Shown: one piece after another, positions 30,516 to 49,578 of the stretch
Position numbering within the stretch: position 1 is the stretch's first letter
Layout of the letters: each line of letters starts with the position of its first letter
NCBI RefSeq assembly: GCF_012933465.1
Contig: NZ_JABBND010000001.1
Span: forward strand, 620,001-684,000
DNA from: Actinomycetospora sp. TBRC 11914
GTDB lineage: Bacteria > Actinomycetota > Actinomycetes > Mycobacteriales > Pseudonocardiaceae
Direction of reading: 5' to 3'
Length of the DNA: 64,000 bases
Notes under the pieces: generated by a model
Seen by the model: only the letters and a program-made list of their open reading frames with translations
Told to the model about the DNA's origin: nothing
Databases searched by the model: none
Position numbers and translations under genes: made by a program

Positions 30516-31961
30516 TCAGGGGCGCATCCCGAGTTCGTGGAGCAGGGCCTCCACGCGGCGGCCGGCGAGGCTCCCGGGCGGGACGTCGCGCAGCTGCGTG
30601 ACGGCGCCGGTGAACGCCCGCTCGGCGGGGGTGAGCAGGTGCTGGTAGCGCTCGTCGAGGAGGAACGAGGCGTCGTCGGTGGCGTGGTGCGCGACGAGGT
30701 CGAGGAAGATCTCCATCCGCCGGGCGGCGCCCGCGACCACCTCGTCGGTGCGGGCCCGGTCGGCGGGACGCTCGGCGAAGGCCTGGTAGCGCAGCTCGCC
30801 GTCCCACATCCGCCGGCGCAGCGGCTCGTCGACCAGGGCCAGCGCCGTGCCCACCACCCGGTCGTCCTCCCGCACGCGGCGGACCTCGTCGGCGAGGTGG
30901 AGGAAGTTCTCGTCGGCCAGCGAGAACCCGGCGAACAGCACGTGGCGGGTCATGAGCAGGCCCTGCACCACCCCCGCCAGGGCGCCCTGTGCGCCCTGGA
31001 ACCGCAGGTAGTGGTCGCGGGTCAGGACGACGTTGCGGCGGCGCGCGAGATCACCGTGCAGCTTGAGCAGGTAGGGCCGGTCGGCGCGCGCCGGCTCGAA
31101 CGGCAGGACGGCGGGCGCCCGCCCGACGGCGCCCAGGGCGCGCTCGAACAGGTCGTCGTAGTTCGTCGTCGCCGCCTCCCACATCGGCAGTGCCGCCAGC
31201 AGGGCGTGGGACAGGCCGTGCCGGTGGGTTGACAGCACCGCGGCCAGGGCGTCCTCGAGCGGCTCGTCGAGGGTGCGCTCGATGAGCGTCGCCGCGTCCT
31301 GGGCCGGCAGCGTGCGGAGCTCCGCGGCCTCCGCCGCCGGGATCGCGGCGCGTCGGGCGAGCTCGTCGAGCAGCATCGCCCACGACGGGAGGCCGGCGCT
31401 CACGCTCACCCCGGCGCCCAGGAACAGCGCGAGCTCGTTGACCCTGGCCCTCGCCGCGAGGTCCTCGGCCGTCGCCTCCTCGGCCGGTGAGAGCCCGTGG
31501 CGCGTCCGTCCGCGCCGCACGTGCTGGGCCGCGGCGTGGTCGCGTCCCGAGCGCAGCACCAGCGCGACGTCGTGCCCCTCGTCGGCGTGGGTCTCGAGGA
31601 CCTCGAGGACGGCTGCGATGACGTCGCCCCGACGCGATCCCGCCGCCCCCCGGCCCGCGCCCACCAACGGCAGGGCGGTGAGGTGCCGCGAGCGGCCTCG
31701 CCGGGGTGGCCGAGCCTGCTGGTCCGCCGCGACGGCGTCCAGGACGTCGTGGACCGTCGTGGCGTACCACGACGCCGCCTGCGGTGACCCGGACCCGGTG
31801 TCGACCGGCCAGATCCCCTCACCCCACGGCGCCCGGCCCGGCGGGACGAGACGGTGCCAGCTCGCGCTGACCTCCCCGCGGGCGTCCGTCGGCACGACGA
31901 CGTCGTCGCACGCCAGCTGCGTCAGGTCGCCGTGCACCACGAAGACGTGCCCTCGCGTCAT
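30516..31961 (-). CDS. Macro-like domain fused to SIR2-type NADase-like domain
   Basis: A 481-residue two-domain protein. Residues 1-150 resemble a macro-like nucleotide-binding domain: HGDLTQLACDDVVVPTDA at the start and LPLVGAGRGAAGSRRGDVIA near residue 100. Residues about 172-430 are a SIR2-like domain with LFLGAGVSVSAGLPSW (GAG at 182-184), ATTNYDDLFE (265-271), LLKLHGDLA with the expected catalytic His302, and FAGFSLADENFL. This motif set is that of SIR2 proteins used as NAD-depleting effectors in bacterial immunity rather than of histone-type deacylases. No obvious partner gene lies beside it. A self-contained NAD-linked defence or stress protein is an inference. Confidence 0.75.
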   Translation of the reverse strand: MTRGHVFVVHGDLTQLACDDVVVPTDARGEVSASWHRLVPPGRAPWGEGIWPVDTGSGSPQAASWYATTVHDVLDAVAADQQARPPRRGRSRHLTALPLVGAGRGAAGSRRGDVIAAVLEVLETHADEGHDVALVLRSGRDHAAAQHVRRGRTRHGLSPAEEATAEDLAARARVNELALFLGAGVSVSAGLPSWAMLLDELARRAAIPAAEAAELRTLPAQDAATLIERTLDEPLEDALAAVLSTHRHGLSHALLAALPMWEAATTNYDDLFERALGAVGRAPAVLPFEPARADRPYLLKLHGDLARRRNVVLTRDHYLRFQGAQGALAGVVQGLLMTRHVLFAGFSLADENFLHLADEVRRVREDDRVVGTALALVDEPLRRRMWDGELRYQAFAERPADRARTDEVVAGAARRMEIFLDLVAHHATDDASFLLDERYQHLLTPAERAFTGAVTQLRDVPPGSLAGRRVEALLHELGMRP

Positions 31962-32156
31962 CCGACGGGCTCCAGGGGTTCGGGCACCGGGCCCGGCTCC
32001 ACACCCGGCCCAGCGGTTCGGCTGTGACGACGGGTGCGGCGTCGTGGACGCGCCCGGCACCACCTTGCTGGGGAGGGCGGCCGGGCACGAGGGTCATCCG
32101 GAGGAACTCGGCCCGCCGGCCCGGGCCGGGCGTCCGGTTCGGCCCCGTCCGTCCGG

Positions 32157-32849
32157 TCAGCGGTCGCCGGGAGCGTCGTGGCTGCTCACGGGCGCGCAGC
32201 GCGCGTACCGGTCCCGCACCGCCGCGACGACGCCGTCGTGGTCGCCCAGCGGCTCGGCCACCACGGCCGCGCCCGCGTCGCCCAGCCACCGGTGGAACGC
32301 CCCCGGCGCGAGCAGCCACGTCGCCAGCGCGACCGGCCCGTCCTGCGCCGCCACGACGTCGGCCACCCGCGGATCACCGCCCGCGATGTAGCCGACCGGC
32401 ACCTCGCTCCCGAGCCGCGCGGCGAAGAGCCCCGCGGCCGTGCGCAGGTCCTCCTGGGCGACCGCGTCCGTCGAGCCCGCCGCCGCCAGGACGACCCGCT
32501 CGCCGTGCCACCCGGCCTCGCGCAGCCGCTCCAGCGCCACGTCCACCAGCCCCGAGTCGGGCCCCAGCGGCTCCGCCAGGCGCACGTCGTCCCGCCCGAC
32601 CGCGGCCAACTGGCCGGGGACGTCGACCCGCACGTGGAAGCCCGCCGCCAGGAACGCCGGGACCACCACGACCGGCCCGGGGAGCTCCGGCAGCACGTCG
32701 GCGAGCTGCGGCCGCGCCACCCCGGCGTACGCCAGCCGGACCTCGACCCCGGGCAGCGCCGCCCGCAGCCGCAGCAGCAGCCGTCCCCAGGTACCCCGGC
32801 CGGCGGCGTCACCGGTGCCGTGGGCGAGGACGACGAGCGCGGGGGTCAC
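32157..32849 (-). CDS. Sirohydrochlorin chelatase CbiX-like
   Basis: A 230-residue two-repeat chelatase. VVLAHGTGDAAGRGTW carries the first-half His motif, VVVVPAFLAAGFHVRVDVP the second His-containing strand, and VVLAAAGSTDAVAQED starts the second repeat. It would insert iron into sirohydrochlorin to make sirohaem, the cofactor of the nitrite reductases encoded nearby. The GTG overlaps the hemD stop as GTGA; it ends the narK-nirB-nirD-hemD-cbiX series. Its last codons contain a half copy of the palindromic element, so the C-terminal CAPVSSHDAPGDR may be element-derived. Confidence 0.82.
   Translation of the reverse strand: MTPALVVLAHGTGDAAGRGTWGRLLLRLRAALPGVEVRLAYAGVARPQLADVLPELPGPVVVVPAFLAAGFHVRVDVPGQLAAVGRDDVRLAEPLGPDSGLVDVALERLREAGWHGERVVLAAAGSTDAVAQEDLRTAAGLFAARLGSEVPVGYIAGGDPRVADVVAAQDGPVALATWLLAPGAFHRWLGDAGAAVVAEPLGDHDGVVAAVRDRYARCAPVSSHDAPGDR
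32183..32202 (+). repeat. Half element G, right end of palindromic family
   Basis: TGCTCACGGGCGCGCAGCGC matches the right end of elements A-E at 19 of 20 positions, but the left palindrome arm is missing. It lies within the 3' coding end of the chelatase gene, not at its stop. Confidence 0.5.
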
Positions 32850-33697
32850 GGTCGCGGGGTACCCGCCACGTGCTCCTCCAGCCGCCGCACCATCGCCCCC
32901 AGACGGAAGCGGTCGGGCGCGATCGAGGGCACGTCGCGGCGGTCCAGCGGCGCTGCGGTCACCGGCCCCACCGCGCAGGCCAGCACCCCCGATCCGCCCG
33001 GACCGCCGCGCAGCGCCGCCACCAGGTCCTCGTCCCGCCCGAGGGTCTCGGCCCGCTGCAGCAGCCCTTCCACGGCGGGCGCGCTGGTGAAGGTCACGAC
33101 GTCGACGTCGCGCCCGACGATCGCGTCGATCAGCGCGTCGACGGCGGGCAGGTCGGGCGGCGGCTCCCACCGGTAGACGTGCACCTCGACGACGTCCGCG
33201 CCCGCCTCGCGCAGCGCCGCCAGGAACCCCGTCATCGGGTCGCCGTGCAGCTGGACCGCGATCCGGCGACCCGCGAGCGGACCCTCACCTCCGGCCAGGA
33301 GGTGCTCGAGCACCTCGGGCGACGACTCGGTGGCCTCCGCCGCCCACACCTCGCGCAGCCCCGCGCCGCGGATCGCGCCGCGCGCCTTCGGGCCCCGGGC
33401 GAGCAGTGCCGCGTCACCGAGCACCGCCCGCAGCCGCTCGCCGAGCCCCCACTCGTCGGCCACCTCCAGCCAGCCGCGGAAGCCCTGACCGGTCGTCGCG
33501 ACGACGACTGCGGGCGGCGCGTCCAGCAGGGCGCGGGTGGTCGCGGCCAGCTCGGCGTCGTCGGCGAGCGGGACGATGCGCATGGTCGGGCCGTGCAGCG
33601 TCGTCGCCCCGCGCCGGTGCAGCAGGTCGATCTGGTCGTCGGCGCGCCGGTCGGCCGTCACGCCGACCCGCACGCCCTCGAGCGGCCCTGGTGTCAT
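32846..33697 (-). CDS. Uroporphyrinogen-III synthase-like protein
   Basis: A 283-residue HemD-family protein. VRVGVTADRRADDQIDLLHRRGA is the N-terminal strand, VVVATTGQGFRGWLEVADEWG and RIAVQLHGDPMTGFLAALRE follow, and VDVVTFTSAPAVEGLLQRAE is the family motif near the active cleft. It would close uroporphyrinogen III for sirohaem synthesis. In the comparable mycobacterial locus (Rv0260c) the HemD part carries an extra C-terminal winged-helix domain; here the protein ends at GTPRP without one. Start and stop overlap both neighbours by 4 bases. Confidence 0.82.
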   Translation of the reverse strand: MTPGPLEGVRVGVTADRRADDQIDLLHRRGATTLHGPTMRIVPLADDAELAATTRALLDAPPAVVVATTGQGFRGWLEVADEWGLGERLRAVLGDAALLARGPKARGAIRGAGLREVWAAEATESSPEVLEHLLAGGEGPLAGRRIAVQLHGDPMTGFLAALREAGADVVEVHVYRWEPPPDLPAVDALIDAIVGRDVDVVTFTSAPAVEGLLQRAETLGRDEDLVAALRGGPGGSGVLACAVGPVTAAPLDRRDVPSIAPDRFRLGAMVRRLEEHVAGTPRP

Positions 33698-34125
33698 GCG
33701 CTCCCGATCTCGACCACCCCGTCCACCACCCGCACAGGATAGGTGGCGACGGCGACCGAGTCGTCCTCGAGTGCGACGCCGGAGTCGAGCGCGAAGTGCT
33801 GCTTGTACAGCGGCGACGCGACGACGGGCGTGCCCCCGAGGTCGCCGACGATGCCCCGCGAGAGCACCGACGCGCCGGAGAACGGGTCGAGGTTGTGCAG
33901 GGCGTAGAGCTCGTCGTCACGGGTCCGGAACACCGCCACCGGTTCCCCGCCGACGAGCGCGCACACGCCCCGTTCCGGGGTGAGGCGCTCGAGCGGGCAG
34001 ATCCGCGTCCAGCCGTCGGTCGCGGGCGGGGTGACGGGCGCGGTGGGTTCCGGACGCGGGTCCTTGGCCTCGGCGCCGTCGGTGGAGCCGTCGGGGTGGT
34101 GGCGGACATCGGCGTACGTGGTCAT
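33694..34125 (-). CDS. nirD: Nitrite reductase small subunit
   Basis: A 143-residue NirD protein with a Rieske-like fold: WTRICPLERLTPERGVCALV, VAVFRTRDDELYALHNLDPF and GTPVVASPLYKQHFALDSG. As in other NirD proteins the Rieske Cys and His ligands are absent. It carries an N-terminal extension of about 35 residues rich in Pro, Asp and Glu. It is the partner of NirB in NADH-dependent reduction of nitrite to ammonium in the cytosol. The ATG overlaps the nirB stop. Confidence 0.9.
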   Translation of the reverse strand: MTTYADVRHHPDGSTDGAEAKDPRPEPTAPVTPPATDGWTRICPLERLTPERGVCALVGGEPVAVFRTRDDELYALHNLDPFSGASVLSRGIVGDLGGTPVVASPLYKQHFALDSGVALEDDSVAVATYPVRVVDGVVEIGSA

Positions 34126-36737
34126 GCGGGGGCCCCCACGGGGATCGTCGGGCCGGCGATGCGGGTGGGCGCCGGCGTGGTGTCGAAGCCGAGCGACCCC
34201 AGGTCGGTCGGCTGGCCCTCCTTCATCCCGGCGGGCACCCGGCGGCCGAGGTGGTCGACGAACTCGATCGTCGGGTCCGGGGTGCCGGGGGCGTTGACGA
34301 ACGAGGTGAAGCGGGCGAGCTTGTCCGGGTCGTCGAGGACGGCCGCCCACTCGTCGGCGTAGCTGCGCACGTGGCGGGCCATCTGCTCGTCGAGCGAGGC
34401 GCAGATGCCGAGCGAGTCCTCGATGACCACCTCGCGCAGGTGGTCGATCCCGCCCTCGAGCGACTCGATCCACGGCGCCGTGCGCTGCAGCCGGTCGGCG
34501 GTGCGCACGTAGAACATGAGGTACCGGTCGATGGTGCGCACGAGCGTCCCGGTGTCGAGGTCGGAGGCGAGCAGCTCGGCGTGGCGGGGCGTGAACCCGC
34601 CGTTGCCGCCGACGTAGAGGTTCCAGCCGTGCTCGGTGGCGATGATCCCGAAGTCCTTCGAGCGGGCCTCGGCGCACTCGCGGGCGCAGCCGCTGACCCC
34701 GGACTTGAGCTTGTGGGGCGACCGCAGCCCGCGGTAGCGCAGCTCGAGCGCGACGGCCAGGCCGACCGAGTCCTGCACGCCGTAGCGGCACCAGTCGGTG
34801 CCCACGCACGACTTCACCGTGCGCAGCGCCTTGCCGTACGCGTGCCCGGACTCGAACCCGGCGTCGACCAGGCGCTTCCAGATCCGCGGCAGGTCGTCGA
34901 GCCGTGCCCCGAACATGTCGATCCGCTGCCCGCCGGTGATCTTGGTGTACAGCCCGAAGTCGCGGGCGACCTCGCCGATCGCGATGAGGCCCTCCCCGGT
35001 GACCTCGCCGCCCGGCAGGCGCGGCACCACCGAGTAGGTGCCGTTGCGCTGCATGTTCGCGAGCGCGTGGTCGTTGGTGTCCTGCAGCGTGGCGGACTCG
35101 CCGTCGAGGACGTGGCCGCCGGCGAGCGTGGCGAGCATGGACGCGACGGCGGGCTTGCAGACGTCGCAGCCGTGCCCGGTGCCGTACGCCGCGAGGATCT
35201 CCGAGAAGGTCGCCAGCCCGGTGGCCAGGACGATCTCGTACAGCTCGGCCCGCGACTGCGCGAAGTGCTCGCAGAGGGCCTTCGACACCTCGACGCCGCA
35301 GCTCGCGAGGACCTTGCCGAGCGTCGGCACGCACGAGCCGCAGGTCGTGCCCGCCCGCGTGCACGCCTTGAGCTGCGGCACCGTCGTCGCCTCGCCGGAG
35401 GCGATGGCGTCGACGAGCGCGCCCTTGGTGACCGCGTTGCAGGAGCAGATCTGGGCCCCGTCGGGCAGCGCGTCGATCCCGACGCCGACAGCGCCCTCCC
35501 CCGCCGGCGCGATCAGCGACATCGGGTCGCCGGGCAGCTCCGCGCCGAGGAACCCGCGCAGCGTCTCGTAGTTCGACGCGTCCCCGACGAGGACCCCGCC
35601 GAGCAGGGTGCGGGCGTCGTCGCTCACCACGAGCTTGGAGTAGGTGCCGGTCACCGGGTCGTCGAGGCGGACCTCGAGGGCGCCCGCCGTCGTCGCGTGG
35701 GCGTCGCCGAAGCTCGCGACGTCGACGCCGAGCAGCTTGAGCTTGGTGGACAGGTCGGCCTCGGTGAACCGGGCCTCGGCGTCGTCGCCGGCCAGCCGCC
35801 CGGCCACCACCTCGGCCATCGCGTAGCCGGGGGCGACCAGGCCGTAGGTGCGCCCGCGGACGGCCGCCACCTCGCCGATCGCCCAGACGTGCTCGTCGGT
35901 CGTGCGGCAGCGCTCGTCCACCAGCACCCCGCCGCGCTCCCCGACGTCGAGCCCGATCTCCCGCGCCAGCGCGTCGGCGGGCCGGATGCCCGCGGAGAAG
36001 ACGACGACGGACGCGTCGAGCTCGGTGCCGTCGGAGAGCGTCACGGTGAGCCCGCCGCGGTGGTCGCGGGCGATCGACGACGTCGAGACGCCGGTGTGCA
36101 CCCGCAGTCCCAGGTCGGACACCAGCCGGTACAGCAGCGCTCCCCCGGCGTCGTCGACCTGGACCGGCATCAGCCGCGGCGCCATCTCCACGACGTGCGG
36201 GGACAGGCCGAGCTGTCGCAGCGCGTTCGCCGCCTCCAGCCCGAGCAGCCCGCCGCCGACGACGACGCCGGACCGACGGCCCGCGCCGGCGTCGGCCGTG
36301 GCGGTCTCGGCGGCGGCACGGAGCCCGTCGAGGTCGTCGAGGGTGCGGTAGACGAACACGCCGTCGAGGTCGTGGCCGGGCACCGGCGGCACGAAAGGCA
36401 CCGACCCGGTCGCGAGCACGAGCTCGTCGTAGTCGACGGCGCGGCCGCGGCGGGTGGTGACCCGGCGGGCCGACCGGTCCACCGCGACGGCCGGGTCGTC
36501 GAGGTGCAGCTCGACGAGCCCGTCGGCGTGGAACTCGTCGTCGGCGAGCGCCAGGTCGTCCTCGGTGGCCTCGCCGACGTAGGAGGACAGGGCCACCCGG
36601 TCGTAGGCCGGCCGCGACTCCTCGGCGAGCACGACGACGCGCCAGGCGCCCTCGGTGTCGCGGCGGCGCAGGCTCTCGACGAACCGGTGGCCGACCATGC
36701 CGTGGCCGACGACGACGACGGTGCGGGGTTCCAACAT
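34122..36737 (-). CDS. nirB: NADH-dependent nitrite reductase large subunit
   Basis: An 871-residue NirB with all expected parts: N-terminal FAD site VVVVGHGMVGHRFVESL, NAD site SGVVVGGGLLGLEAANAL, a BFD-like [2Fe-2S] segment (ICSCNAVTKG, then CTRAGTTCGSC), the ferredoxin-like domain (ITGGQRIDMFGA), and the sirohaem/[4Fe-4S] ligands C-x5-C in CVGTDWC and C-x3-C in SGCARECAEA. It reduces nitrite to ammonium with NirD. It follows narK, separated by palindromic element C, and is overlapped by nirD. Confidence 0.95.
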   Translation of the reverse strand: MLEPRTVVVVGHGMVGHRFVESLRRRDTEGAWRVVVLAEESRPAYDRVALSSYVGEATEDDLALADDEFHADGLVELHLDDPAVAVDRSARRVTTRRGRAVDYDELVLATGSVPFVPPVPGHDLDGVFVYRTLDDLDGLRAAAETATADAGAGRRSGVVVGGGLLGLEAANALRQLGLSPHVVEMAPRLMPVQVDDAGGALLYRLVSDLGLRVHTGVSTSSIARDHRGGLTVTLSDGTELDASVVVFSAGIRPADALAREIGLDVGERGGVLVDERCRTTDEHVWAIGEVAAVRGRTYGLVAPGYAMAEVVAGRLAGDDAEARFTEADLSTKLKLLGVDVASFGDAHATTAGALEVRLDDPVTGTYSKLVVSDDARTLLGGVLVGDASNYETLRGFLGAELPGDPMSLIAPAGEGAVGVGIDALPDGAQICSCNAVTKGALVDAIASGEATTVPQLKACTRAGTTCGSCVPTLGKVLASCGVEVSKALCEHFAQSRAELYEIVLATGLATFSEILAAYGTGHGCDVCKPAVASMLATLAGGHVLDGESATLQDTNDHALANMQRNGTYSVVPRLPGGEVTGEGLIAIGEVARDFGLYTKITGGQRIDMFGARLDDLPRIWKRLVDAGFESGHAYGKALRTVKSCVGTDWCRYGVQDSVGLAVALELRYRGLRSPHKLKSGVSGCARECAEARSKDFGIIATEHGWNLYVGGNGGFTPRHAELLASDLDTGTLVRTIDRYLMFYVRTADRLQRTAPWIESLEGGIDHLREVVIEDSLGICASLDEQMARHVRSYADEWAAVLDDPDKLARFTSFVNAPGTPDPTIEFVDHLGRRVPAGMKEGQPTDLGSLGFDTTPAPTRIAGPTIPVGAPA

Positions 36738-36756: not shown

Positions 36757-36814
36757 GTGAGCAGAAAAGGTCGCTATACCGACACTTTCTGCTCACGAGC
36801 GCGCAGCGCACCTA
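36757..36814. repeat. Three-hairpin palindromic element C
   Basis: A 40-base palindrome (36757-36796) almost identical to element A, with one substitution that breaks the inner GTCGG/CCGAC stem by a C-C mismatch. It ends GCGC-GCA-GCGC-ACCTA, whose CTA is the minus-strand TAG stop of narK. It lies between two same-strand genes and begins 19 bases before (upstream of) the nirB start codon, so it could attenuate or process the narK-nirB transcript. Confidence 0.85.
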
Positions 36815-38194
36815 GGCGGACGCGTAGCTGACCGTCGAGCCCGTGGCCGGGTCGGTCGCGGCCTTCGAGCGGCGCAGGTAGACGACGTAGGTGACGACGA
36901 AGCAGACCGCGTAGAAGGCGACGAACGCCCAGAACGCGGGGGTGCCGGACTTCGTCGACTGGAACGAGGCGCGGAACGCGAGGTTGATGAGCAGCCCGCC
37001 GAAGGCGCCGATCGCACCGGCGATCCCGATGACCGCGCCCGACGTGCGGCGCGCCCACAACAGCGCGCCCTGCTGGTCCCAGCCGCGCGATTCCGACGAT
37101 GCCAGCGCCTTCGTCCGGAAGATCGCCGGGATCATCTTGTAGACCGAGCCGTTGCCGATGCCGGAGGTGATGAACAGCAGCACGAAGCCGACGACGAACA
37201 ACGGCAGCGACTTGATCCCCGACGCCCAGATGCAGATCAGCGCGCTGACCGCCATCGCGACGAAGTTCCAGAACGTGACCCGCGTGCCGCCGATCCGGTC
37301 GGAGAGCATCCCGCCCACCGGCCGGATCAGGGATCCGAGCAGCGGGCCGATGAACGTGATCGAGGCGGCCTGCAGCGGGGTGCGGCCGAACTGGTTCTGC
37401 AGCACCAGGCCGAAGGCGAAGCTGTAGCCGATGAACGACCCGAAGGTGCCGATGTAGAGGAAGGAGAGGATCCAGGTCTGCGCGTCCTTCGCCGCCTCCG
37501 CGAGCGCACCGGTGTCGTTGCGCACCGTCGACAGGTTGTCCATGAACAGCGCCGCGCCGACCAGCGCGATGACGATCAGCGGGATGTAGACCGCCAGCAG
37601 GATCCGCGGGGAGCCGGTGCCGGCCGTCGCGATGATCAGCAGCCCGACCAGCTGGATGACCGCGACGCCGAGGTTCCCGCCGCCGGCGTTGAGCCCGAGC
37701 GCCTTGCCCTTCTCGCTCTCGCGGAAGAAGGCGTTGATGTTCGTCATCGACGAGGCGAAGTTGCCGCCGCCGACGCCGGCGATCGCCGCCACCACCATGA
37801 ACGTCGTGTACGACGTGCCGGGGTGCATGACGATCGCGGCGAGGATCGCCGGCACCAGCAGGAGCGCGGCCGAGATGATGGTCCAGTTGCGGCCGCCGAA
37901 CACCGCGACCGCCATCGAGTAGGGCAGCCGGAGCACCGAACCGACGAGGGTGGGCATCGAGACCAGGAAGAACTTGCCGGCGGTGTCGATGTGGTACGCG
38001 TCGCCCATGAACAGCGTGAGCACCGCGAAGAGCGACCAGATCGAGAAGCCGATGTGCTCGGAGAACACCGAGAACCACAGGTTCCGGTTCGCGATCTTCT
38101 TCCCGGTGCTCTCCCAGAAGCCCGGATCCTCCGGACGCCAGTCGTCGATCCACCGGCCCCCGCGGGTCCCGGCGGCCTCGGCGGCCACGCTCAT
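36812..38194 (-). CDS. narK: Nitrate/nitrite MFS transporter
   Basis: A 460-residue protein with about twelve membrane segments. The NarK signature appears as GVGGGNFASSMTNINAFF and again as GIGNGSVYKMIPAIF (two nitrate-signature G-rich helices), and LPYSMAVAVFGGRNW follows the first conserved Arg helix, VGSVLRLPYS. The N-terminal WRPEDPGFWESTGKKIANRNL is typical of actinobacterial NarK. It imports nitrate or exchanges nitrate for nitrite, feeding NirBD. The narK start is preceded, 84 bases upstream, by a GlnR-like box. Confidence 0.92.
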   Translation of the reverse strand: MSVAAEAAGTRGGRWIDDWRPEDPGFWESTGKKIANRNLWFSVFSEHIGFSIWSLFAVLTLFMGDAYHIDTAGKFFLVSMPTLVGSVLRLPYSMAVAVFGGRNWTIISAALLLVPAILAAIVMHPGTSYTTFMVVAAIAGVGGGNFASSMTNINAFFRESEKGKALGLNAGGGNLGVAVIQLVGLLIIATAGTGSPRILLAVYIPLIVIALVGAALFMDNLSTVRNDTGALAEAAKDAQTWILSFLYIGTFGSFIGYSFAFGLVLQNQFGRTPLQAASITFIGPLLGSLIRPVGGMLSDRIGGTRVTFWNFVAMAVSALICIWASGIKSLPLFVVGFVLLFITSGIGNGSVYKMIPAIFRTKALASSESRGWDQQGALLWARRTSGAVIGIAGAIGAFGGLLINLAFRASFQSTKSGTPAFWAFVAFYAVCFVVTYVVYLRRSKAATDPATGSTVSYASA

Positions 38195-38277: not shown

Positions 38278-38293
38278 GTTACGGCGGCGTGAC
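38278..38293 (-). promoter_or_regulatory. GlnR-like box upstream of narK
   Basis: On the minus strand this reads GTCAC-GCCGCC-GTAAC, fitting gTnAC-n6-GaAAC with one mismatch in the second half-site. GlnR activates nitrite and nitrate assimilation genes in actinobacteria, so the position before narK-nirBD is meaningful. A GAAAC lies 10 bases further upstream. Confidence 0.5.
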
Positions 38294-38339: not shown

Positions 38340-39236
38340 TCAGAGCAGTTCGGTGACCACGCGGGCGGCGTGCTCGAGCCCGCGCAGCGACTCCTTGGTG
38401 CAGGCCGGGTGCTGGGCGTGGACCGCGAGCCGGAAGAGCAGCCCGTGCAGCAGCATCTGGGGCCACGCCACCAGGTGCGACCAGCGCCCGACGATGCCCG
38501 AGTCGGCCCCGCCCCAGGCCAGGGCGTCCACGACGACGACGGCGGCCGCCCACTCGACCGGCCGCCAGAACGGCACGACGTCGAGCACCGCGGGCGGCGC
38601 CTGCTCGGTGCCGGGGCCCTCGGGGGTGTCCGGCCCGTCGAAGAGCACGGTGCCGAACAGGTCGCCGTGCACCAGCTGGGACGGCACCGTCACGGGGACG
38701 CGCCGGCGGACCAGCTCGGCGAACAGGTCACCGCCGGTCTCGGCGTCGAGCGACACGGAGCGCTCGCCGAAGGCCATGCGGTCGGCCCGGGCGAGGATGT
38801 CGTCGCGGTCGTCGACGAGGCGGGGGCGGGCGAGCTTGGCGGTGGCGCGGTGCAGCCGCAGCGAGACCGCGACGACGTCGTCGTGCCGGGGGCGGACCTG
38901 CCCGGCCACGTCGTGGCACGCCGCCCAGCCCGAGACCACGCGCCGCCCGTCCGAGGCACGCACCGGACGGGCGACGCGCACGCCGTCGACCCCGGAGGCG
39001 GCCAGCTCCTCGGTGGTGGCCGCGGACCACGCCGCGAGCACCGTGTCCGACACCGGCCGCAGCAGGATGCCGTCGCACGTCCAGGCGGGCCCGGGCAGGT
39101 GCGGGCGTGGCCGTGGTTCCGCCTCACGGACCCCGAACGCGGTGCGCACGTGCAGGGGCGGACCCTCGGGCTCGCCGGCCGCGGCCGGCGGCTGCGCCCG
39201 GGTGTCCTGGGGCGGGGCGGCGGTCACGCTCCGCAC
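38340..39236 (-). CDS. TIGR02569-family protein (Rv3205c-like)
   Basis: A 298-residue actinobacterial protein with remote resemblance to aminoglycoside phosphotransferases. VPSQLVHGDLFGTVLFDG has the H-G-D of the kinase-like catalytic loop, and VLDVVPFWRPVEWAAAVVVVDAL resembles the metal-binding D-x-x-P-x-W segment. Substrate and activity are unknown. The family is conserved beside adnA and moeZ in mycobacteria. The start is a GTG at 39236; another GTG 9 bases later (39227) is equally possible. It lies after cynS on the same strand. Confidence 0.72.
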   Translation of the reverse strand: MRSVTAAPPQDTRAQPPAAAGEPEGPPLHVRTAFGVREAEPRPRPHLPGPAWTCDGILLRPVSDTVLAAWSAATTEELAASGVDGVRVARPVRASDGRRVVSGWAACHDVAGQVRPRHDDVVAVSLRLHRATAKLARPRLVDDRDDILARADRMAFGERSVSLDAETGGDLFAELVRRRVPVTVPSQLVHGDLFGTVLFDGPDTPEGPGTEQAPPAVLDVVPFWRPVEWAAAVVVVDALAWGGADSGIVGRWSHLVAWPQMLLHGLLFRLAVHAQHPACTKESLRGLEHAARVVTELL

Positions 39237-39304: not shown

Positions 39305-39745
39305 TCACCAGACCTTGTACGGCAGGAACTTGCCGCTCCAGATCAGCTTGACGCGGTCGCCCTTCGGGTCGGGCTCGCGCTCGAACTCCAGCGAGAAGTC
39401 GATGGCGCTCATGATGCCGTCGCCGAACTCCTCGCGGATGAGCTCGTGCAGCGCCGAGCCGTAGACCTGCAGCGCCTCCTGCAGCCGGTAGGTCACCGGC
39501 TCGGTGGGGTCGAGCGCCGCCTCACCGCGCACCGGCGGGAGGGCGAGCGCGGCGACGGCGGCGTCGTCGAGACCGAGCACCCCACCGACCTGCTGGGCCT
39601 GCTCGGCGTCGAGGGGCTGCTGGCCCAGCAGCGCCGAGGTCGTCCAGACCAGGGAGCGGCCGAGGGTGTCGGCGAGCTGCTGCCAGCTCATGCCCTTCGC
39701 GTCCTTGGCGGCGACCACCGCGCGGCCCGCCTCGAGCCTGTCCAT
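39305..39745 (-). CDS. cynS: Cyanate hydratase (cyanase)
   Basis: A 146-residue cyanase. The N-terminal helix-turn-helix-like domain (MSWQQLADTLGRSLVWTTSALL) is followed by the catalytic domain YRLQEALQVYGSALHELIRE and FGDGIMSAIDF, placing the catalytic residues at Arg87, Glu90 and Ser113. It ends with GKFLPYKVW, like other cyanases. The enzyme converts cyanate and bicarbonate to ammonium and CO2. AGGAGGAACCG precedes the ATG. It follows menC by 18 bases; functionally it fits the Nit1C and nitrite genes nearby, not menaquinone synthesis. Confidence 0.93.
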   Translation of the reverse strand: MDRLEAGRAVVAAKDAKGMSWQQLADTLGRSLVWTTSALLGQQPLDAEQAQQVGGVLGLDDAAVAALALPPVRGEAALDPTEPVTYRLQEALQVYGSALHELIREEFGDGIMSAIDFSLEFEREPDPKGDRVKLIWSGKFLPYKVW

Positions 39746-40868: not shown

Positions 40869-42047
40869 GTGATCGCCGACCGTCGTGCCGTGGAGATCGT
40901 CCCGACCGACGGGTCCGCCGCCGCGGCGCGGGCGCTGGCCGCCCGCCTCGTCACCGCCGCCGCCGGGGAGGGCCCGGCGGTGCTGCCGACCGGGCCGGGC
41001 GAGCCGGCGCCCCGGGCGGCGCTCACCGGGCCGGTGCCGCCGGGGGTCGCGGCCGTGGTGACGACGTCGGGCTCGACCGGCGTGCCCAAGGCGGTGCTGC
41101 TGTCCGGCACGGCGCTGGCGGCGTCGGCGGCGGCGACGGCGGCCCGGCTCGGCGGGGACGGGCGCTGGCTGCTCGCGCTGCCGGCCCACCACGTCGCGGG
41201 GGTGCAGGTCCTGCTGCGCTCGGCGCGCTCCGGGTCGCCGGCCGCGGTGATGGAGCTGCGCGACGGTTTCCGGCCCGACGGGTTCGCCGCCGCGCTCGAG
41301 GCCGCCGCGCGCGACGGGGGCGGCCCGGTCAGCCGCACCTCGCTGGTGCCGACCCAGGTCCGGCGCCTGCTCGACGACGCCGGGGCCGGGCTCGACGCGC
41401 TGCGCGCGCTCGACGCGGTGCTCGTCGGCGGCGCGGCCGCCGACCCCGGCCTGCTGGCCCGCGCCCGCGAGGCCGGGGTGCGGGTGTTGACCACCTACGG
41501 GATGAGCGAGACCTGCGGCGGCTGCGTCTACGACGGCGTGCCGCTCGACCGCGTCACGGTGGAGTTCGAGGGTCAGGACGAGACGGGGGCGGGCCGGGTC
41601 GTGCTCGGCGGCGCCACCGTCGCCGAGGGGTACCGCGGCGCCGACGACGCGGCCGCCGCGGACTTCCTGCCCGGCCGGCGGTTCCGCACGTCCGACCTCG
41701 GGCGGATCGACCGCGACGGCCGGCTGGAGATCCTCGGGCGGGCCGACGACGTCATCGTCACCGGCGGCGAGAAGGTGGCCCCGGCCGCCGTCGAACGCGC
41801 CCTGCTGGCGGTGGCGGGGGTGCGGGAGGCGTGTGTGGTGGGGGTGCCCGACGCCGAGTGGGGCGCGCGGGTCGTGGCCGTGGTCGCCGGGGAGCGGGGG
41901 GCGTCGCTGGACGCCGAGGCGGTGCGCGCCGAGGTCGCGCTCATGGGCCGGGCCGCGCCGCGCGAGGTGCGGGTGCTGGAGGCGGTGCCCGTGCACGGCA
42001 TCGGCAAGCCGGACCGCGCCGCCGTCCGGGAGCTCTTCGCCCGGTGA
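40869..42047 (+). CDS. menE: o-Succinylbenzoate-CoA ligase
   Basis: A 392-residue adenylate-forming enzyme, short as MenE proteins are. VVTTSGSTGVPKAVLL is the P-loop, LLALPAHHVAGVQVLLRS the following strand, LTTYGMSETCGGCVYDG the A5 motif, FRTSDLGRID the A7, and GRADDVIVTGGEKVAPAAVE with GKPDRAAV the hinge and catalytic Lys. It activates o-succinylbenzoate for MenB. GTG starts at 40869 or 40890 are possible. Divergent from menC and followed, after 200 bases, by the winged-helix/reductase fusion rather than by menB. Confidence 0.88.
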   Translation: MIADRRAVEIVPTDGSAAAARALAARLVTAAAGEGPAVLPTGPGEPAPRAALTGPVPPGVAAVVTTSGSTGVPKAVLLSGTALAASAAATAARLGGDGRWLLALPAHHVAGVQVLLRSARSGSPAAVMELRDGFRPDGFAAALEAAARDGGGPVSRTSLVPTQVRRLLDDAGAGLDALRALDAVLVGGAAADPGLLARAREAGVRVLTTYGMSETCGGCVYDGVPLDRVTVEFEGQDETGAGRVVLGGATVAEGYRGADDAAAADFLPGRRFRTSDLGRIDRDGRLEILGRADDVIVTGGEKVAPAAVERALLAVAGVREACVVGVPDAEWGARVVAVVAGERGASLDAEAVRAEVALMGRAAPREVRVLEAVPVHGIGKPDRAAVRELFAR

Positions 42048-42079: not shown

Positions 42080-42095
42080 GCAACGTCGGCGTAAC
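42080..42095 (+). promoter_or_regulatory. Weak GlnR-like box upstream of the fusion gene
   Basis: GCAAC-GTCGGC-GTAAC has the 11-base phase of GlnR half-sites, with a GTAGC continuing the phase at 42102. Each half-site carries one mismatch. It lies about 150 bases before the GTG of the winged-helix/reductase gene. Apart from this the 200-bp gap shows nothing. Confidence 0.3.
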
Positions 42096-42247
42096 CAGGT
42101 CGTAGCCGGTACGCGCCGGTTCCGTGGTCCGATGTCCCATCCGCCGTCGGTTCGGCCACCAGACCCCGCGGCGTCCCGTGCACCCTCACACCCGACGGGC
42201 GCGCGTGGCAGCGGTCCCACCACCCGATCCGGCGGGAGGTCTCGCGC

Positions 42248-44704
42248 GTGCACCTGCTCCTCGTCAGCGCGGCGGAGTCCGTGGAGGGCGTCCTGCCCGC
42301 CCTCGGGCTGCTCTCGGCCCACCGGACGACGCTGACCCCGGTGGCGTCGGCCGGTGTCCTCGCCGCGCCCGACGACGTCGACGTCGTGCTGCTCGACGGC
42401 CGCGAGCGCCCCCGCGCCGCGTCCGAGCTCGCCGCCGCCGCCACCCGCGCCCGCCCGGACGTCCCCCGGGTCCTCGTGCTCGGCCCCGACGCCGACCTGC
42501 CGCCCGACGCCGAGGACCACCTCGACGGGCTGGTGCTCGCCGACGCCGGGCCGGCCGAGATCGACCTGCGCCTCCGGCTCGCCATCGGGCGCGCCGGGCC
42601 CCGCCGCCCCCGTCCGGAGCCGGGGAACGGCCTGCCCGCGCTCGGCGAGGGCGCGCTGGCCGTCGGGGACCTCGTCGTGGACGCCGCGTCGTTCCACGCG
42701 CGGGTGGCCGGGCGACCGCTCGTGCTCGCCCGCCGCGAGTTCGAGCTGCTCACCGAGCTCGTCGAGCACGCCGGGCGGCCGCTGTCGCGCCGCCAGCTGC
42801 TCGCGAGCGTCTGGGGCCGGGACTACGAGGGCAGCGCCCGCACCGTCGACGTGCACGTCCGCCAGCTCCGCCGCGTCCTCGGCCCGCGGCACCGCGACAT
42901 GATCCGGACGGTGCGCGGCGTCGGGTACGTGCTGGTCTCGGGGCCCGCGACCGTCGCCGCACCGGTCGGCGTCGTGTCCCCCCTGCTCGCCCGGCCGCTG
43001 GCCGGGCACCGTCCCGGTCACCGCCCCGCGCGCCCCGGCGGGCGGGACACGCCGGGCGACGTCGTCGCGAGCAAGCGGGCCGGGCTCCCCCTCGACCCCG
43101 CCGCGCTCGGCGCGGGCCGCCTCGGCGCGCTGGAGCGCTACAGCCTCAAGACCCTCGGGGTCTGCTCGCAGGCCGCCGACACCCACTTCCTCGTCCGCGC
43201 CCGGACGAGGGCGACGCTGCCGGCCGACGCCGCCCGGACGCTCGCCGCCCTCGCGCGGCGCCACAGCGACGGCCGGGTGCACCTCACGACCCGCCAGCAG
43301 GTCGAGCTGCACGACGTCGCCGCGGCCGACGTCGACGACGTCCTCGACCACCTGGGCGCCGCCGGCCTCGACACCTCCTCGACGTGTGGACACACCGTCC
43401 GCGGCGTGACCAGCTGCCCCGACGCGGGGGTGTCGGCCGACGAGCCCTTCGACTGCACCCCCGACGCGACGGCGCTCACCGACTCGCTGCTGGCGCTCGG
43501 CCCGGACCTCAACGCCCGGCTGCCCCAGCGGCTGACGATCGGTATGGGCGGCTGCGGGCCGTGCCGGGACCAGGCGAAGGTCTCGGACGTCGGGCTCGTC
43601 TCCACCCTCGACGACGACGGCCGGCCGGGCTACGAGCTGTGGGCCGGGGGCAGCCTCGGCCGCTCCTCCCCCACGCTCGCCAGCCGGATCGTCGAGTTCG
43701 TCCCGCGCGAGCGGCTGCTGCCCGCGGTGCACGCGGTGCTCGAGGTCTTCCTCGCCCACGGCGCCTTCGACACCCCGAACCGGGCTCGGCTGAAGTTCCT
43801 CGTCGGGCGCCTGGGCGTCACGCGGTTCACCGCGCTGGTCGCCGAGGCCGACCGCGCCGCCCGACGCCGGCCGTGGCCCGAGCCCGCGCCGCTGCCCGCG
43901 CGCCCGGCCGTCGTCGGGGGGCCGTCGCCCGCCGGCGGCCCGGTTCCCGACGGCGGGTGGGGTACCGACGTCCGCGCCCAGACCGCTCCGGGCCTCGTCA
44001 CGGTCACCGTGACGGTGCCGCTCGGGGAGCTCGCCGCCGACGCGCTCGAGGCCCTCGCCGCGGCGTGCGAGGTCGACGGCGACGGCATCCTGCGCCCGAC
44101 GCGCGAGCAGAACGTCGTGCTGCGCGACGTCGCGGTGGCGCGGGTCGGGGTGCTGCGGCGCACGCTCGCGGAGCACGGGCTCGTCGTAGGCGCCGACCAT
44201 CCCGCGCACGACGTGCGCGCGTGCGTGGGTGCGCCGGTCTGCGCGCTCGCGATCACGTCGACCCACGACCTCGCCCGGGCCCTCTGGGAGCTCCCGGCGC
44301 TGCGCCGCAACAGCGGGCTGCGGGTGAGCGTGTCGGGGTGCCCGGCCAGCTGCACCCGTCACCAGACCGCCGACCTGGGCTTCGCGGGCAACCTGGTCTC
44401 GATCGGGGGCCGGCGGGTGCCCGGCTACCGGGTGCACCTCGGCGGCGACCTGCGCCGCGACCGGCTCGGCCGTGTCCTCGGGCGCGTCGCCGCCGACCAC
44501 GTGCCCGCGCTGGTCGAGGCGGTCGTCGCGGTCTGGGAGGAGCACCGCATGGGGCACGAGTCGCTCGCCGGGACCGTCGATCGCCTCGGCCCGCGGATCG
44601 TGGTCGACGCGCTGCGCGGGCTGCCCGCCCTGGCCTGGGCGGCGGGCGCGGAGGACGCCGACGGCACGGGCGACCGGGACCTCCCGCTGGCCGCGGCCAC
44701 GTGA
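42248..44704 (+). CDS. Winged-helix regulator fused to sirohaem nitrite/sulfite reductase
   Basis: An unbroken 818-residue frame. Residues 1-115 resemble a degenerate receiver domain (LLLVSAAESVEGVLPALGLL, DVDVVLLDGRERP). Residues 135-230 are an OmpR/GlnR-type winged helix: LVLARREFELLTELVEHAG, LSRRQLLASVWG, TVDVHVRQLRRVLG and IRTVRGVGYVLV. After a Pro/Arg-rich linker, residues 275-790 are a ferredoxin-type nitrite/sulfite reductase with both halves: VHLTTRQQVELHDV, TVRGVTSCPDAGVS, PRLKFLV-like RARLKFLVGRLG, and the cluster ligands Cys659, Cys665 (ACVGAPVC) and Cys698, Cys702 (SGCPASC). GGGAGG precedes the GTG. A haem-sensing regulator or a self-regulating reductase are both possible; the domain assignments are firm, the function inferred. 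Confidence 0.82.
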   Translation: MHLLLVSAAESVEGVLPALGLLSAHRTTLTPVASAGVLAAPDDVDVVLLDGRERPRAASELAAAATRARPDVPRVLVLGPDADLPPDAEDHLDGLVLADAGPAEIDLRLRLAIGRAGPRRPRPEPGNGLPALGEGALAVGDLVVDAASFHARVAGRPLVLARREFELLTELVEHAGRPLSRRQLLASVWGRDYEGSARTVDVHVRQLRRVLGPRHRDMIRTVRGVGYVLVSGPATVAAPVGVVSPLLARPLAGHRPGHRPARPGGRDTPGDVVASKRAGLPLDPAALGAGRLGALERYSLKTLGVCSQAADTHFLVRARTRATLPADAARTLAALARRHSDGRVHLTTRQQVELHDVAAADVDDVLDHLGAAGLDTSSTCGHTVRGVTSCPDAGVSADEPFDCTPDATALTDSLLALGPDLNARLPQRLTIGMGGCGPCRDQAKVSDVGLVSTLDDDGRPGYELWAGGSLGRSSPTLASRIVEFVPRERLLPAVHAVLEVFLAHGAFDTPNRARLKFLVGRLGVTRFTALVAEADRAARRRPWPEPAPLPARPAVVGGPSPAGGPVPDGGWGTDVRAQTAPGLVTVTVTVPLGELAADALEALAAACEVDGDGILRPTREQNVVLRDVAVARVGVLRRTLAEHGLVVGADHPAHDVRACVGAPVCALAITSTHDLARALWELPALRRNSGLRVSVSGCPASCTRHQTADLGFAGNLVSIGGRRVPGYRVHLGGDLRRDRLGRVLGRVAADHVPALVEAVVAVWEEHRMGHESLAGTVDRLGPRIVVDALRGLPALAWAAGAEDADGTGDRDLPLAAAT

Positions 44705-44743: not shown

Positions 44744-45652
44744 GTGAGCGCCGACGACTCGATCTTCGACCCGTCCGCCTGGCGTGCGGTGGAGGGCTTC
44801 GCCTTCACCGACATCACCTACCACCGGTCCGTCGACCTGGGGTGCGTTCGGATCGCGTTCGACCGTCCCGAGGTGCGCAACGCATTCCGGCCGCACACCG
44901 TCGACGAGCTCGCGACGGCCCTGGAGCACGCGCGCACCAGCGCCGACGTCGGCGTGGTGCTGCTGACCGGCAACGGCCCGTCCCCGCGCGACGGCGGCCA
45001 CGCCTTCTGCTCCGGCGGCGACCAACGCATCCGCGGCCGCACGGGCTACCAGTACGCGTCGTCGGAGACCGCGGTGAGCGCGCAGGAGCAGGGCCGGGCC
45101 GGCCGGCTGCACATCCTCGAGTGCCAGCGGCTCATCCGCTTCATGCCGAAGGTGTGCATCGCCGTCGTCAACGGGTGGGCCGCGGGCGGCGGGCACTCGC
45201 TGCACGCGGTCTGCGACCTCACCCTCGCGTCGGCCGAGCACGCCCGGTTCAAGCAGACCGACGCCGACGTCGGGTCCTTCGACGGCGGGTACGGCTCGGC
45301 CTACCTCGCGCGGCAGGTCGGGCAGAAGTTCGCCCGTGAGATCTTCTTCCTCGGCCGGACCTACGACGCCGAGGCCATGCACCGGATGGGCGCGGTGAAC
45401 GAGGTCGTCCCGCACGCCGAGCTGGAGTCGACGGCGCTGCAGTGGGCGCGGGAGATCCTCGGCAAGTCCCCGCAGGCGCAGCGGATGCTCAAGTACTCGT
45501 TCAACCTGATCGACGACGGGCTCGTCGGCCAGCAGCTCTTCGCCGGCGAGACGACCCGGCTGGCCTACATGACCGACGAGGCCGTCGAGGGCAAGGAGTC
45601 GTTCCTGCAGAAGCGGGAGCCCGACTGGGCCCCGTTCCCCTGGTACTACTGA
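44744..45652 (+). CDS. menB: 1,4-Dihydroxy-2-naphthoyl-CoA synthase
   Basis: A 302-residue crotonase-fold enzyme. AFCSGGDQRIRGRTGYQ is the oxyanion-hole region specific to MenB, VNGWAAGGGHSLHAVCDLTLAS the second oxyanion strand, and QTDADVGSFDGGYGSAYLAR the MenB signature; the C-terminus WAPFPWYY is usual. It cyclises o-succinylbenzoyl-CoA. It starts at GTG 39 bases after the fusion gene and overlaps the convergent oxidoreductase gene by 7 bases. The last 13 bases recur as a direct repeat downstream of that gene. Confidence 0.93.
   Translation: MSADDSIFDPSAWRAVEGFAFTDITYHRSVDLGCVRIAFDRPEVRNAFRPHTVDELATALEHARTSADVGVVLLTGNGPSPRDGGHAFCSGGDQRIRGRTGYQYASSETAVSAQEQGRAGRLHILECQRLIRFMPKVCIAVVNGWAAGGGHSLHAVCDLTLASAEHARFKQTDADVGSFDGGYGSAYLARQVGQKFAREIFFLGRTYDAEAMHRMGAVNEVVPHAELESTALQWAREILGKSPQAQRMLKYSFNLIDDGLVGQQLFAGETTRLAYMTDEAVEGKESFLQKREPDWAPFPWYY
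45640..45652 (+). repeat. 13-bp direct repeat, left copy (menB 3' end)
   Basis: CTGGTACTACTGA forms the last codons and stop of menB. The same 13 bases recur at 46725, flanking the oxidoreductase gene. Confidence 0.7.
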
Positions 45653-48507: not shown

Positions 48508-49374
48508 TCAGGCCTGGGCGACCTCACGGTCGCGCGGCACGGCGGAGTCGGGGGTCGTGGTGGCCTCGGACGACGACGGCCGTTCCCCGCGGGCGACGTA
48601 GCCGTACGCGGCGCCGAGCAGCGCGCCGCCGACGAGGTTGCCGAGACCGACCCAGAGCATGTTCCAGGCGAAGACCCCGACGGTGACGCCCGGCGCCCCG
48701 GAGAACAGGCCCAGCGCGAGGATCGTCATGTTGGCGACGACGTGGTCGAAGCCGGTGGTGATGAACGCGAGCAGCGCCCAGAAGAGCACGACGAGCTTGG
48801 CGCCGTCGGAGCGGGTGCGGGCGGCCATCCAGACGCCGAGGCAGACGAGCAGGTTGCACAGCACACCGCGGAAGAACATGGTGCCGGCGCCCTCGGTCGC
48901 CTTCGACTTCGCCGTCGAGAACAGGAAGTTCAGCATGGCCGGCTGCTGGCCCGGGTTCGCGATCTTGAGGACGCCGGACGCCTCGACGAGCAGCGAGAAG
49001 AGCAGCCCGCCGACGAGGTTGCCGACGAACGAGAACACGATCACCGCGACGACGGCGCCGACCCCGGTGCGCTTGGCCCGGTCGAACAGGCCGATGACCA
49101 TCGTCATCATGTTGCCGGTGGTCAGCTCGCCGCCGGCGAACACCACGAGGGTCAGCGCGATCCCGAAGACGAGGCCCTGCACGAGCTTCGTGAAGGGACT
49201 GTTGGCGGCGTTGAGCGGGCCCGCGGCGGCCAGCATCAGGCAGACCGCGACCCCGATGTAGGCCCCGGCGAGCGCGGCGCTCACCAGGTAGGAGCCGGGC
49301 GAGCGACTGGCGCGGGTCTTGGTGACGGCGACCTCGGCCTGCTCGTCGATGGCTTCGGGGACGGGGATGGGCAT
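48508..49374 (-). CDS. Formate/nitrite channel (FNT family)
   Basis: A 288-residue membrane protein with six hydrophobic segments. SAALAGAYIGVAVCLMLAAA is helix 1, FAGGELTTGNMMTMVIGL the family signature after helix 2, RGVLCNLLVCLGVWMAARTR the C-N-x-L-V-C-L motif of helix 4, and FDHVVANMTILALGLFSG contains the pore His. FNT channels carry formate, nitrite or hydrosulfide. Given the nitrite genes in this window, nitrite is likely but not proven. GGAGAGG precedes the ATG. The C-terminal tail is hydrophilic and Ser/Thr-rich. Confidence 0.9.
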   Translation of the reverse strand: MPIPVPEAIDEQAEVAVTKTRASRSPGSYLVSAALAGAYIGVAVCLMLAAAGPLNAANSPFTKLVQGLVFGIALTLVVFAGGELTTGNMMTMVIGLFDRAKRTGVGAVVAVIVFSFVGNLVGGLLFSLLVEASGVLKIANPGQQPAMLNFLFSTAKSKATEGAGTMFFRGVLCNLLVCLGVWMAARTRSDGAKLVVLFWALLAFITTGFDHVVANMTILALGLFSGAPGVTVGVFAWNMLWVGLGNLVGGALLGAAYGYVARGERPSSSEATTTPDSAVPRDREVAQA

Positions 49375-49578
49375 GGGGACCTCTCCGGAGGGGGCAACGG
49401 CTGCGTCCGAACGAACGCTTCTGTGCGCATACCAACAGCCCATCCGACGGCGCTGGTGTGCTCGCCGTGAACGCTGCGTGAGCGCGCTGTCACCGTGAGC
49501 GCCCAACTGGGCATCGGCGGACGAACCGGACGATCTCCTTCGCTGCTAGCGTCCGTCCACCGGTGGGAGGAGGACCTC

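Follow-up and report, generated by a model that had tools for sequence, protein, structure and literature searches.

The 64,000-nucleotide stretch of the Actinomycetospora sp. TBRC 11914 genome analyzed here (contig NZ_JABBND010000001.1, positions 620,001 to 684,000; hereafter the window) carries a gene whose single product joins a GlnR-type transcriptional regulator to a NirA-type sirohaem reductase fold. This raises the question of whether such a fusion works as an enzyme, as a regulator, or as both. The original prediction, made from the sequence alone, had proposed either a transcription factor that senses nitrite, sulfite or sirohaem through a catalytic domain or a reductase that controls its own supply. 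Of these, a sensor of nitrite, sulfite or sirohaem became the best-supported reading, while an enzyme with a complete active site did not hold up. On evidence that we regard as evenly poised, the fusion may well be a GlnR-derived, NnaR-like regulator of nitrate and nitrite assimilation that responds to nitrite or sirohaem, its NirA-type domain serving as a sensor rather than, or far more than, as an enzyme. The same note knew of no characterized protein of this architecture, and we likewise found no published description of a regulator-reductase protein of this kind in the open-licence literature searched.

A regulator and a reductase fold in one reading frame

The gene is one stop-free frame of 818 codons with a GTG start, and the difference in G+C content between its third and second codon positions (GC3-GC2, 0.42) is that of a real gene. 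In Pfam order, the protein comprises GlnR_1st at residues 1 to 113 (3e-16), Trans_reg_C at residues 155 to 229 (2.7e-25), and then two NIR_SIR_ferr and two NIR_SIR stretches (3.6e-26, 5.5e-36). The best solved relatives of residues 3 to 240 are the OmpR-family regulators 8hig (2.7e-41) and 8hih, both of which we take to be GlnR, and the best solved relative of residues 312 to 777 is Mycobacterium tuberculosis NirA (1zj8; 8.9e-38). The predicted open frame with its winged helix and reductase was thus borne out, the cluster cysteines lie exactly where they had been placed, and the region called receiver-like is indeed a receiver, which can now be specified as a GlnR pseudo-receiver. The parts of the gene are as follows.

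42234-42239, forward strand: Shine-Dalgarno-like GGGAGG, 8 nt ahead of the GTG start (by eye)
42248-44704, forward strand: fusion gene, GlnR-type regulator and NirA-type sirohaem reductase fold, 818 amino acids (frame and Pfam)
42248-42586, forward strand: GlnR-type pseudo-receiver, residues 1-113 (Pfam GlnR_1st and GlnR alignment)
42650-42937, forward strand: OmpR/GlnR winged helix, residues 135-230 (Pfam, structure relatives and GlnR alignment)
42938-43171, forward strand: linker and connector RPGGRDxPGDVVASKRAGLPLD...ERYSLKTLG, residues 231-308, including Y298 (strong conservation)
43172-43882, forward strand: N-terminal half of the NIR/SIR fold, residues 309-545 (Pfam and alignment)
43526-43537, forward strand: anion-binding R-K-x-K position, here Q427-R428-L429-T430 (NirA alignment)
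43949-44632, forward strand: C-terminal half of the NIR/SIR fold, residues 568-795 (Pfam and alignment)
44222-44353, forward strand: [4Fe-4S]-sirohaem ligand set C659-x5-C665 ... C698-x3-C702 (alignment)

We found the full-length fusion (residues 1 to at least 803) in 7 of 18 Actinomycetospora genomes, at 63 to 78% identity and with all four Pfam families present in each protein. An assembly or frameshift error joining two genes was rejected, since the same junction recurs in seven genomes at that level of divergence and the block behind it is the most conserved part of the protein; we give this explanation virtually no chance. Both halves of the fusion are under purifying selection. The ratio of nonsynonymous to synonymous substitution rates (dN/dS), computed for 5 of 21 pairs, was 0.06 to 0.40 in the receiver, the winged helix and the two NIR blocks and 0 to 0.09 in the connector (residues 262 to 308), and it reached 1.18 in one pair in the short linker at residues 114 to 134.

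The fusion was not seen in other genera in any of three samples. A scan with six short peptide patterns, which would miss distant relatives, covered one genome per species and returned 75 loci, two of them full-length (Actinomycetospora chiangmaiensis and Actinomycetospora endophytica) and the other 73 matching the regulator part only. With a threshold of 1e-45, matches came from 26 of 120 genomes in the family sample; five of these were full-length, all from Actinomycetospora, and the other 21 began at residue 308 or later. A threshold of 1e-60 was passed by 87 of 148 genomes in the class sample, and the window's own genome alone matched over the full length, the others starting at profile position 310 or beyond. 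The comparison of one-chain Trans_reg_C and NIR_SIR proteins and their neighborhoods that the original prediction had proposed yielded a fusion in 7 of the 18 genomes of the genus, with its locus conserved in all seven. In the NirA tree, the fusion genomes form one clade together with a 59%-complete genome (G010) in which no fusion was found.

Compared with eight GlnR-like proteins of the genus, including two from fusion genomes, the regulator half shows about 44% identity. It has the domain set of GlnR, a GlnR_1st receiver followed by a Trans_reg_C winged helix, and the recognition-helix core RTVDVHV is identical to that of GlnR. D50 and R52 of the pseudo-receiver are invariant in all seven fusions, and the Thr9 position holds Thr in four and Ser in three. 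In an excerpt from a published study, the Asp50-Arg52 pair is described as holding the GlnR homodimer without phosphorylation (PMC10704036); the fusion retains the residues of this Asp50-Arg52(-Thr9) pocket, and a corresponding dimer is predicted. The fusion is not the genome's GlnR ortholog, which would be a two-domain protein: it has 818 residues and a C-terminal reductase fold, and a closer GlnR-like gene lies elsewhere in the genome.

The suggestion that an internal start near residue 245 also yields a free reductase found no support as a general feature. A GTG stands at residues 240 to 245 in five of the seven genes, with no clear Shine-Dalgarno sequence by eye, and the two remaining genes have no start codon there: ATG, GTG and TTG are all absent between residues 216 and 289 in one (L013) and between residues 216 and 286 in the other (L014). 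From the other five genes a free reductase might still be made in this way.

Retained and changed residues of the reductase half

We aligned the reductase half with two sets of proteins: 66 NirA rows, each the strongest NIR match of its genome in the genus, family or class sample (many come from one genus), and 11 CobG rows, seven of them over the TIGR02435 cut-off and four below it. All seven fusions keep R317, R385, Y298 and C380 as well as the four cluster cysteines, the latter in the NirA pattern C-x5-C / C-x3-C. We take R317, R385, Y298 and C380 to correspond to R97, R166, Tyr69 and Cys161 of M. tuberculosis NirA, with the offset drawn from the 1zj8 alignment and, for Tyr69, from spacing. 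C390, C436 and C439 are also invariant in the fusions. The set formed by C380 and these three, which might conceivably hold a second cluster, is not all special to the fusion: the C380 column is Cys in 66 of 66 NirA rows, and the C390 and C436 columns are each Cys in 20 of 66.

The change lies at the anion-binding motif. R-K-x-K, present in 66 of 66 NirA rows, is replaced by Q-R-[LF]-[TS] in all seven fusions, which have Arg at the first Lys position and either Thr (5/7) or Ser (2/7) at the second. These lysines are presumably K207 and K209 of M. tuberculosis NirA. All 11 CobG rows read G-R-x-L/W/Q here. Of the R-R-K-K active-site set, the fusion thus keeps both arginines and has replaced both lysines, so that the earlier description of a "complete" reductase was too strong, even though the cluster ligands are kept.

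Against the NCBIfam NirA model PRK09567, the fusion scored 164.9 bits and did not reach the cut-off of 523, and its reductase half is 29 to 32% identical to four actinobacterial NirA proteins. The nearest free-standing protein seen was a Thermus plasmid nitrite/sulfite reductase, 36% identical; no closer one was seen in the family sample, the class sample or plasmids, which together do not cover all bacteria. Because this nearest relative still reads RKFK, the change of R-K-x-K probably arose in the lineage of the fusion. In a tree of the seven fusions, the 11 CobG rows and 30 of the 66 NirA rows, the fusion half formed a clade outside both families, on long branches that make its position uncertain.

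We also considered whether the protein is a precorrin-3B synthase (CobG) preceded by a regulatory part, as the fusion matches TIGR02435 at 129.8 bits. That score falls short of the 234.8-bit cut-off and is lower than that of the genome's own NirA-type protein (193.1 bits); the fusion has Tyr298 and Cys380, which are absent from the CobG rows, and its tree position is outside the CobG clade. We therefore rejected this identity, to which we attach only a very slight probability.

The narK-nirBD locus and its promoters

The fusion gene lies between menE and menB, about 4 kb from narK-nirBD, as had been stated, and its linkage to nitrite assimilation is conserved. The original prediction was right about narK-nirBD and had missed that the neighboring HemD-like gene at 32846-33697 is an NnaR ortholog that lacks its DNA-binding domain. 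The surrounding features are listed below.

32157-33170, reverse strand: CbiX/SirB-like chelatase frame, domain at residues 117-212; the true start is inside the frame, which overlaps the end region of the NnaR-like gene
32846-33697, reverse strand: NnaR ortholog without a winged helix, 283 amino acids, covering positions 8-276 of the 381-position PRK07239 profile
33694-34119 (start approximate), reverse strand: nirD, nitrite reductase small subunit (TIGR02378)
34122-36737, reverse strand: nirB, nitrite reductase large subunit (TIGR02374)
36812-38194, reverse strand: narK, nitrate/nitrite transporter, a likely regulated neighbor (TIGR00886, 301.1 bits, just below the cut-off of 311.7)
38278-38293, reverse strand: predicted GlnR-type box GTCAC-n6-GTAAC in the narK promoter (pattern scan and by eye)
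40869-42047 (start approximate), forward strand: menE-like gene, upstream neighbor of the fusion (PRK07824, 340.7 bits, just below the cut-off of 345)
42080-42106, forward strand: predicted GlnR-type box array upstream of the fusion, 11-bp spacing, GCAAC-n6-GTAAC-n6-GTAGC (pattern scans)
44744-45652, forward strand: menB, downstream neighbor of the fusion (family model match)
48508-49506, reverse strand: formate/nitrite family transporter, about 4 kb downstream of the fusion (family model match)

In the window and the six fetched regions from other fusion genomes, the gene order was the same, NnaR-like gene/nirD/nirB/narK/TIGR02569-like gene/menC and then menE/fusion/menB, so that the fusion stands in or beside the narK-nirBD locus, the location typical of NnaR, in all seven. 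The nirB and fusion NIR_SIR domains are 8.3 to 9.1 kb apart throughout, and in three of the loci 1.7 to 4.2 kb of other genes separate the fusion from menB. When nirB genes were grouped by score, the fusion occurred in 7 of 10 genomes with the locus-type nirB and in none of the 8 without it, an association that adds no independent evidence, given that the fusion genomes are one clade and three of the eight genomes are less than 85% complete.

Excerpts from the literature report that NnaR activates narK and nirB (PMC10704036) and that Mycobacterium abscessus has the same gene order, narK3-nirBD-nnaR-sirB (PMC11162112). The window gene that occupies the place of nnaR scored over the PRK07239 cut-off (354.9 bits against 273) and still lies between nirBD and the chelatase frame. 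A winged helix is missing from the end of its product, both here and in each of the Actinomycetospora regions fetched (9 of 9, six with the fusion and three without), as judged by length and by eye. We also examined 27 orthologs from the family's other genera. Of these, 23 had a tail of 98 to 123 residues with a winged-helix pattern, called by eye from its length and the shared HAVE..RLR...KRGYRL, and four did not; these loci were the best 30 of 75 matching genomes (80 searched), three of them from Actinomycetospora, and the count is biased toward close orthologs. NnaR orthologs likewise ending without a winged helix were seen at four loci in two genera of the family (L229, L233, L234 and L235). 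When the winged helix of the fusion was compared with the NnaR tails by phmmer, nothing matched at E values up to 1, and hence nothing points to NnaR as the source of this domain. The fusion also does not have the NnaR domain order of a HemD-like part followed by a winged helix, and no HEM4 match was found in it.

A GlnR-like box beside the fusion had been noted before, and we located it at 42080-42095. The pattern GMAAC-n6-GTMAY occurs once in the window, at 42080, against 0.16 occurrences expected, and at least once in 15 of 100 shuffles. A GHHAY-n6-GHHAY box is present upstream of the fusion in all seven genomes, at -38 or -39 in five and at -164 or -168 in two; for each region, 1 to 33 out of 500 dinucleotide shuffles also contained it. 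This pattern is a form of the GlnR boxes in an excerpt from PMC10704036, widened after the sequences had been seen. With a looser pattern, 45 to 100 of the 500 shuffles had a match, and the stricter one was likewise chosen after the sequences had been seen. Weak half-site matches mean little, because a scan of the window gave 18 matches against 7 to 14 in five shuffles. The narK promoter has a box together with a TAnnnT element (by eye) in 10 of 10 syntenic loci, with or without the fusion, one of them with GTAGC as its second half. In five genomes, the fusion begins shortly after menE and may be leaderless; a TGnnAT element precedes its start by six or seven bases (by eye). The window gene differs, having GGGAGG ahead of its GTG.

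Several further observations concern the locus and its surroundings. A formate/nitrite transporter gene is also found near the fusion in three other loci (L169, L170 and L171). The TIGR02569-family protein of unknown function (38340-39236, reverse strand), between narK and menC, is matched in every syntenic locus (10 of 10), the window included. A cyanase gene (39305-39745, reverse strand) occurs in 5 of these 10 loci, and the five fusion genomes of the other clade do not have it. The source genome has a second nirB (G000:C5:74577-74990; L178:8400-11009; TIGR02374, 771.6 bits), and by score grouping 14 of 18 genomes of the genus have matches like it. Four GlnR-type half-sites with 11-bp spacing (GCAAC, GTAGT, GCAAC and GAAAC) lie at 22592-22629 on the forward strand, with more at 22514-22581 on the reverse strand; they stand upstream of a gene for an MSMEG_0569-family flavin oxidoreductase (22712-24070), a candidate GlnR target. 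A SIR2_2-domain protein (30516-32063, reverse strand) is possibly a defense or stress protein.

Readings of the fusion and comparison with known systems

As a nitrite- or sirohaem-responsive regulator, the fusion would work as follows. Its pseudo-receiver, in which the relevant residues are kept, would dimerize without phosphorylation. The GlnR-like winged helix would bind boxes of the GnnAc type with 11-bp spacing, both those of narK-nirBD and those in its own promoter, either by itself or with GlnR. The C-terminal domain would load a [4Fe-4S]-sirohaem center through the four retained cysteines. DNA binding would then change in response to nitrite or a related anion at this center, or to sirohaem itself being present there. 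The protein would thereby act like NnaR, a HemD-like/winged-helix coactivator of narK-nirBD whose local ortholog lacks the DNA-binding domain. We propose more tentatively, as a possibility short of our favored reading, that it represents a new class of transcription factor with a sirohaem-[4Fe-4S] sensory cofactor, in which a nitrite reductase fold would have lost its anion-reducing lysines after capture by a GlnR-type regulator.

Several points weigh against the regulator reading. The linkage of fusion and locus was inherited within one clade and does not represent seven independent events. Each of the seven genomes has a separate GlnR-like gene that is closer to GlnR, and the fusion is therefore an extra regulator beside the genome's own GlnR. 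Three genomes (G008, G012 and G016) have no fusion, although they carry the locus as far as menE, an NnaR that lacks its winged helix and a narK box of the same kind, so that the fusion is not required and the narK boxes may be GlnR's own sites, whose presence alone is no proof that the fusion binds them. A replacement of lost NnaR function by the fusion is only suggestive, since neither the fusion nor an NnaR winged helix is present in these three. The replacement of Lys by Arg in the motif is conservative, so that the domain may still be catalytic. Finally, an AlphaFold2 model from a three-sequence alignment was unusable (mean predicted local distance difference test score [pLDDT], 41.7; predicted template modeling score [pTM], 0.28).

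The chief competing explanation is a reductase that still works on nitrite or sulfite, binds DNA as well, and regulates both its own supply and the narK-nirBD locus. Such a trigger enzyme would account for the retention of the cluster cysteines, the two arginines and the Tyr-Cys pair, and R428 preserves the positive charge; moreover, the solved nitrite reductases of the 3b0h/3b0l set, which we take to be the tobacco enzymes, read RKWN, with Asn at the second Lys of NirA, and this position hence tolerates change. We nevertheless consider it doubtful, given that R-K-x-K is lost in all seven fusions and that the source genome already has two NirB genes and a NirA-type protein besides the fusion. 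It is less probable still that the N-terminal part just dimerizes or positions the reductase and regulates no DNA. Sirohaem decarboxylases with a helix-turn-helix-like part offer a precedent, and the fusion receiver is more divergent than the GlnR of the genus, but the winged helix is under purifying selection (dN/dS 0.19 to 0.31, five pairs) and its recognition-helix core is that of GlnR. We would give little credence to a domain that senses the supply of sirohydrochlorin, precorrin or sirohaem instead of nitrite. It would fit the Arg at the first Lys position, as in the 11 CobG rows, and the loss of the second Lys in both families, CobG being an enzyme with a tetrapyrrole substrate, and NnaR too uses a tetrapyrrole-enzyme domain, according to an excerpt from PMC11162112. 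Speaking against it are the retained NirA-like Tyr-Cys pair and four-cysteine set and a tree position outside the CobG clade.

In an excerpt from a 2024 study, the HemD domain of NnaR is proposed as a sensor, possibly of a tetrapyrrole precursor, and nitrate/nitrite sensing by NnaR is called a mystery (PMC11162112). The fusion ties the same locus to a different fold of the sirohaem pathway, and because the ligand pocket of the NirA-type fold is well known, the sensing question is directly testable. If our favored reading is true, capture of a pathway enzyme by an OmpR winged helix would be a recurrent route. A new class of the kind proposed above would give a lineage whose NnaR has no DNA-binding domain a direct nitrite or sirohaem-status switch for narK-nirBD. 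We know of no characterized sirohaem-based transcription factor, and none was found in the open-licence literature searched.

Among known systems, NnaR (Streptomyces coelicolor SCO2958, MSMEG_0432 and MAB_3520c) likewise joins a sirohaem-pathway enzyme fold to an OmpR winged helix and is encoded with narK-nirBD in a locus under GlnR-type control, but it has HemD first, the winged helix behind it and no receiver, whereas the fusion has a GlnR receiver and winged helix followed by a NirA-type fold. GlnR, the actinobacterial orphan OmpR/PhoB regulator, shares the GlnR_1st receiver with D50 and R52, the recognition-helix core and the type of box; it differs in having no reductase domain and in being only about 44% identical. 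The NirA proteins of M. tuberculosis (1zj8), Thermus and actinobacteria resemble the fusion in their two NIR_SIR_ferr and two NIR_SIR modules, their four cluster cysteines and the equivalents of R97/R166 and Tyr69/Cys161, and are unlike it in their intact R-K-x-K and in lacking a fused regulator. CobG, the precorrin-3B synthase, has in common with the fusion an Arg at the first Lys position and a lost second Lys, but it forms a separate clade, and the fusion keeps the NirA-type Tyr and Cys and scores under the CobG family cut-off.

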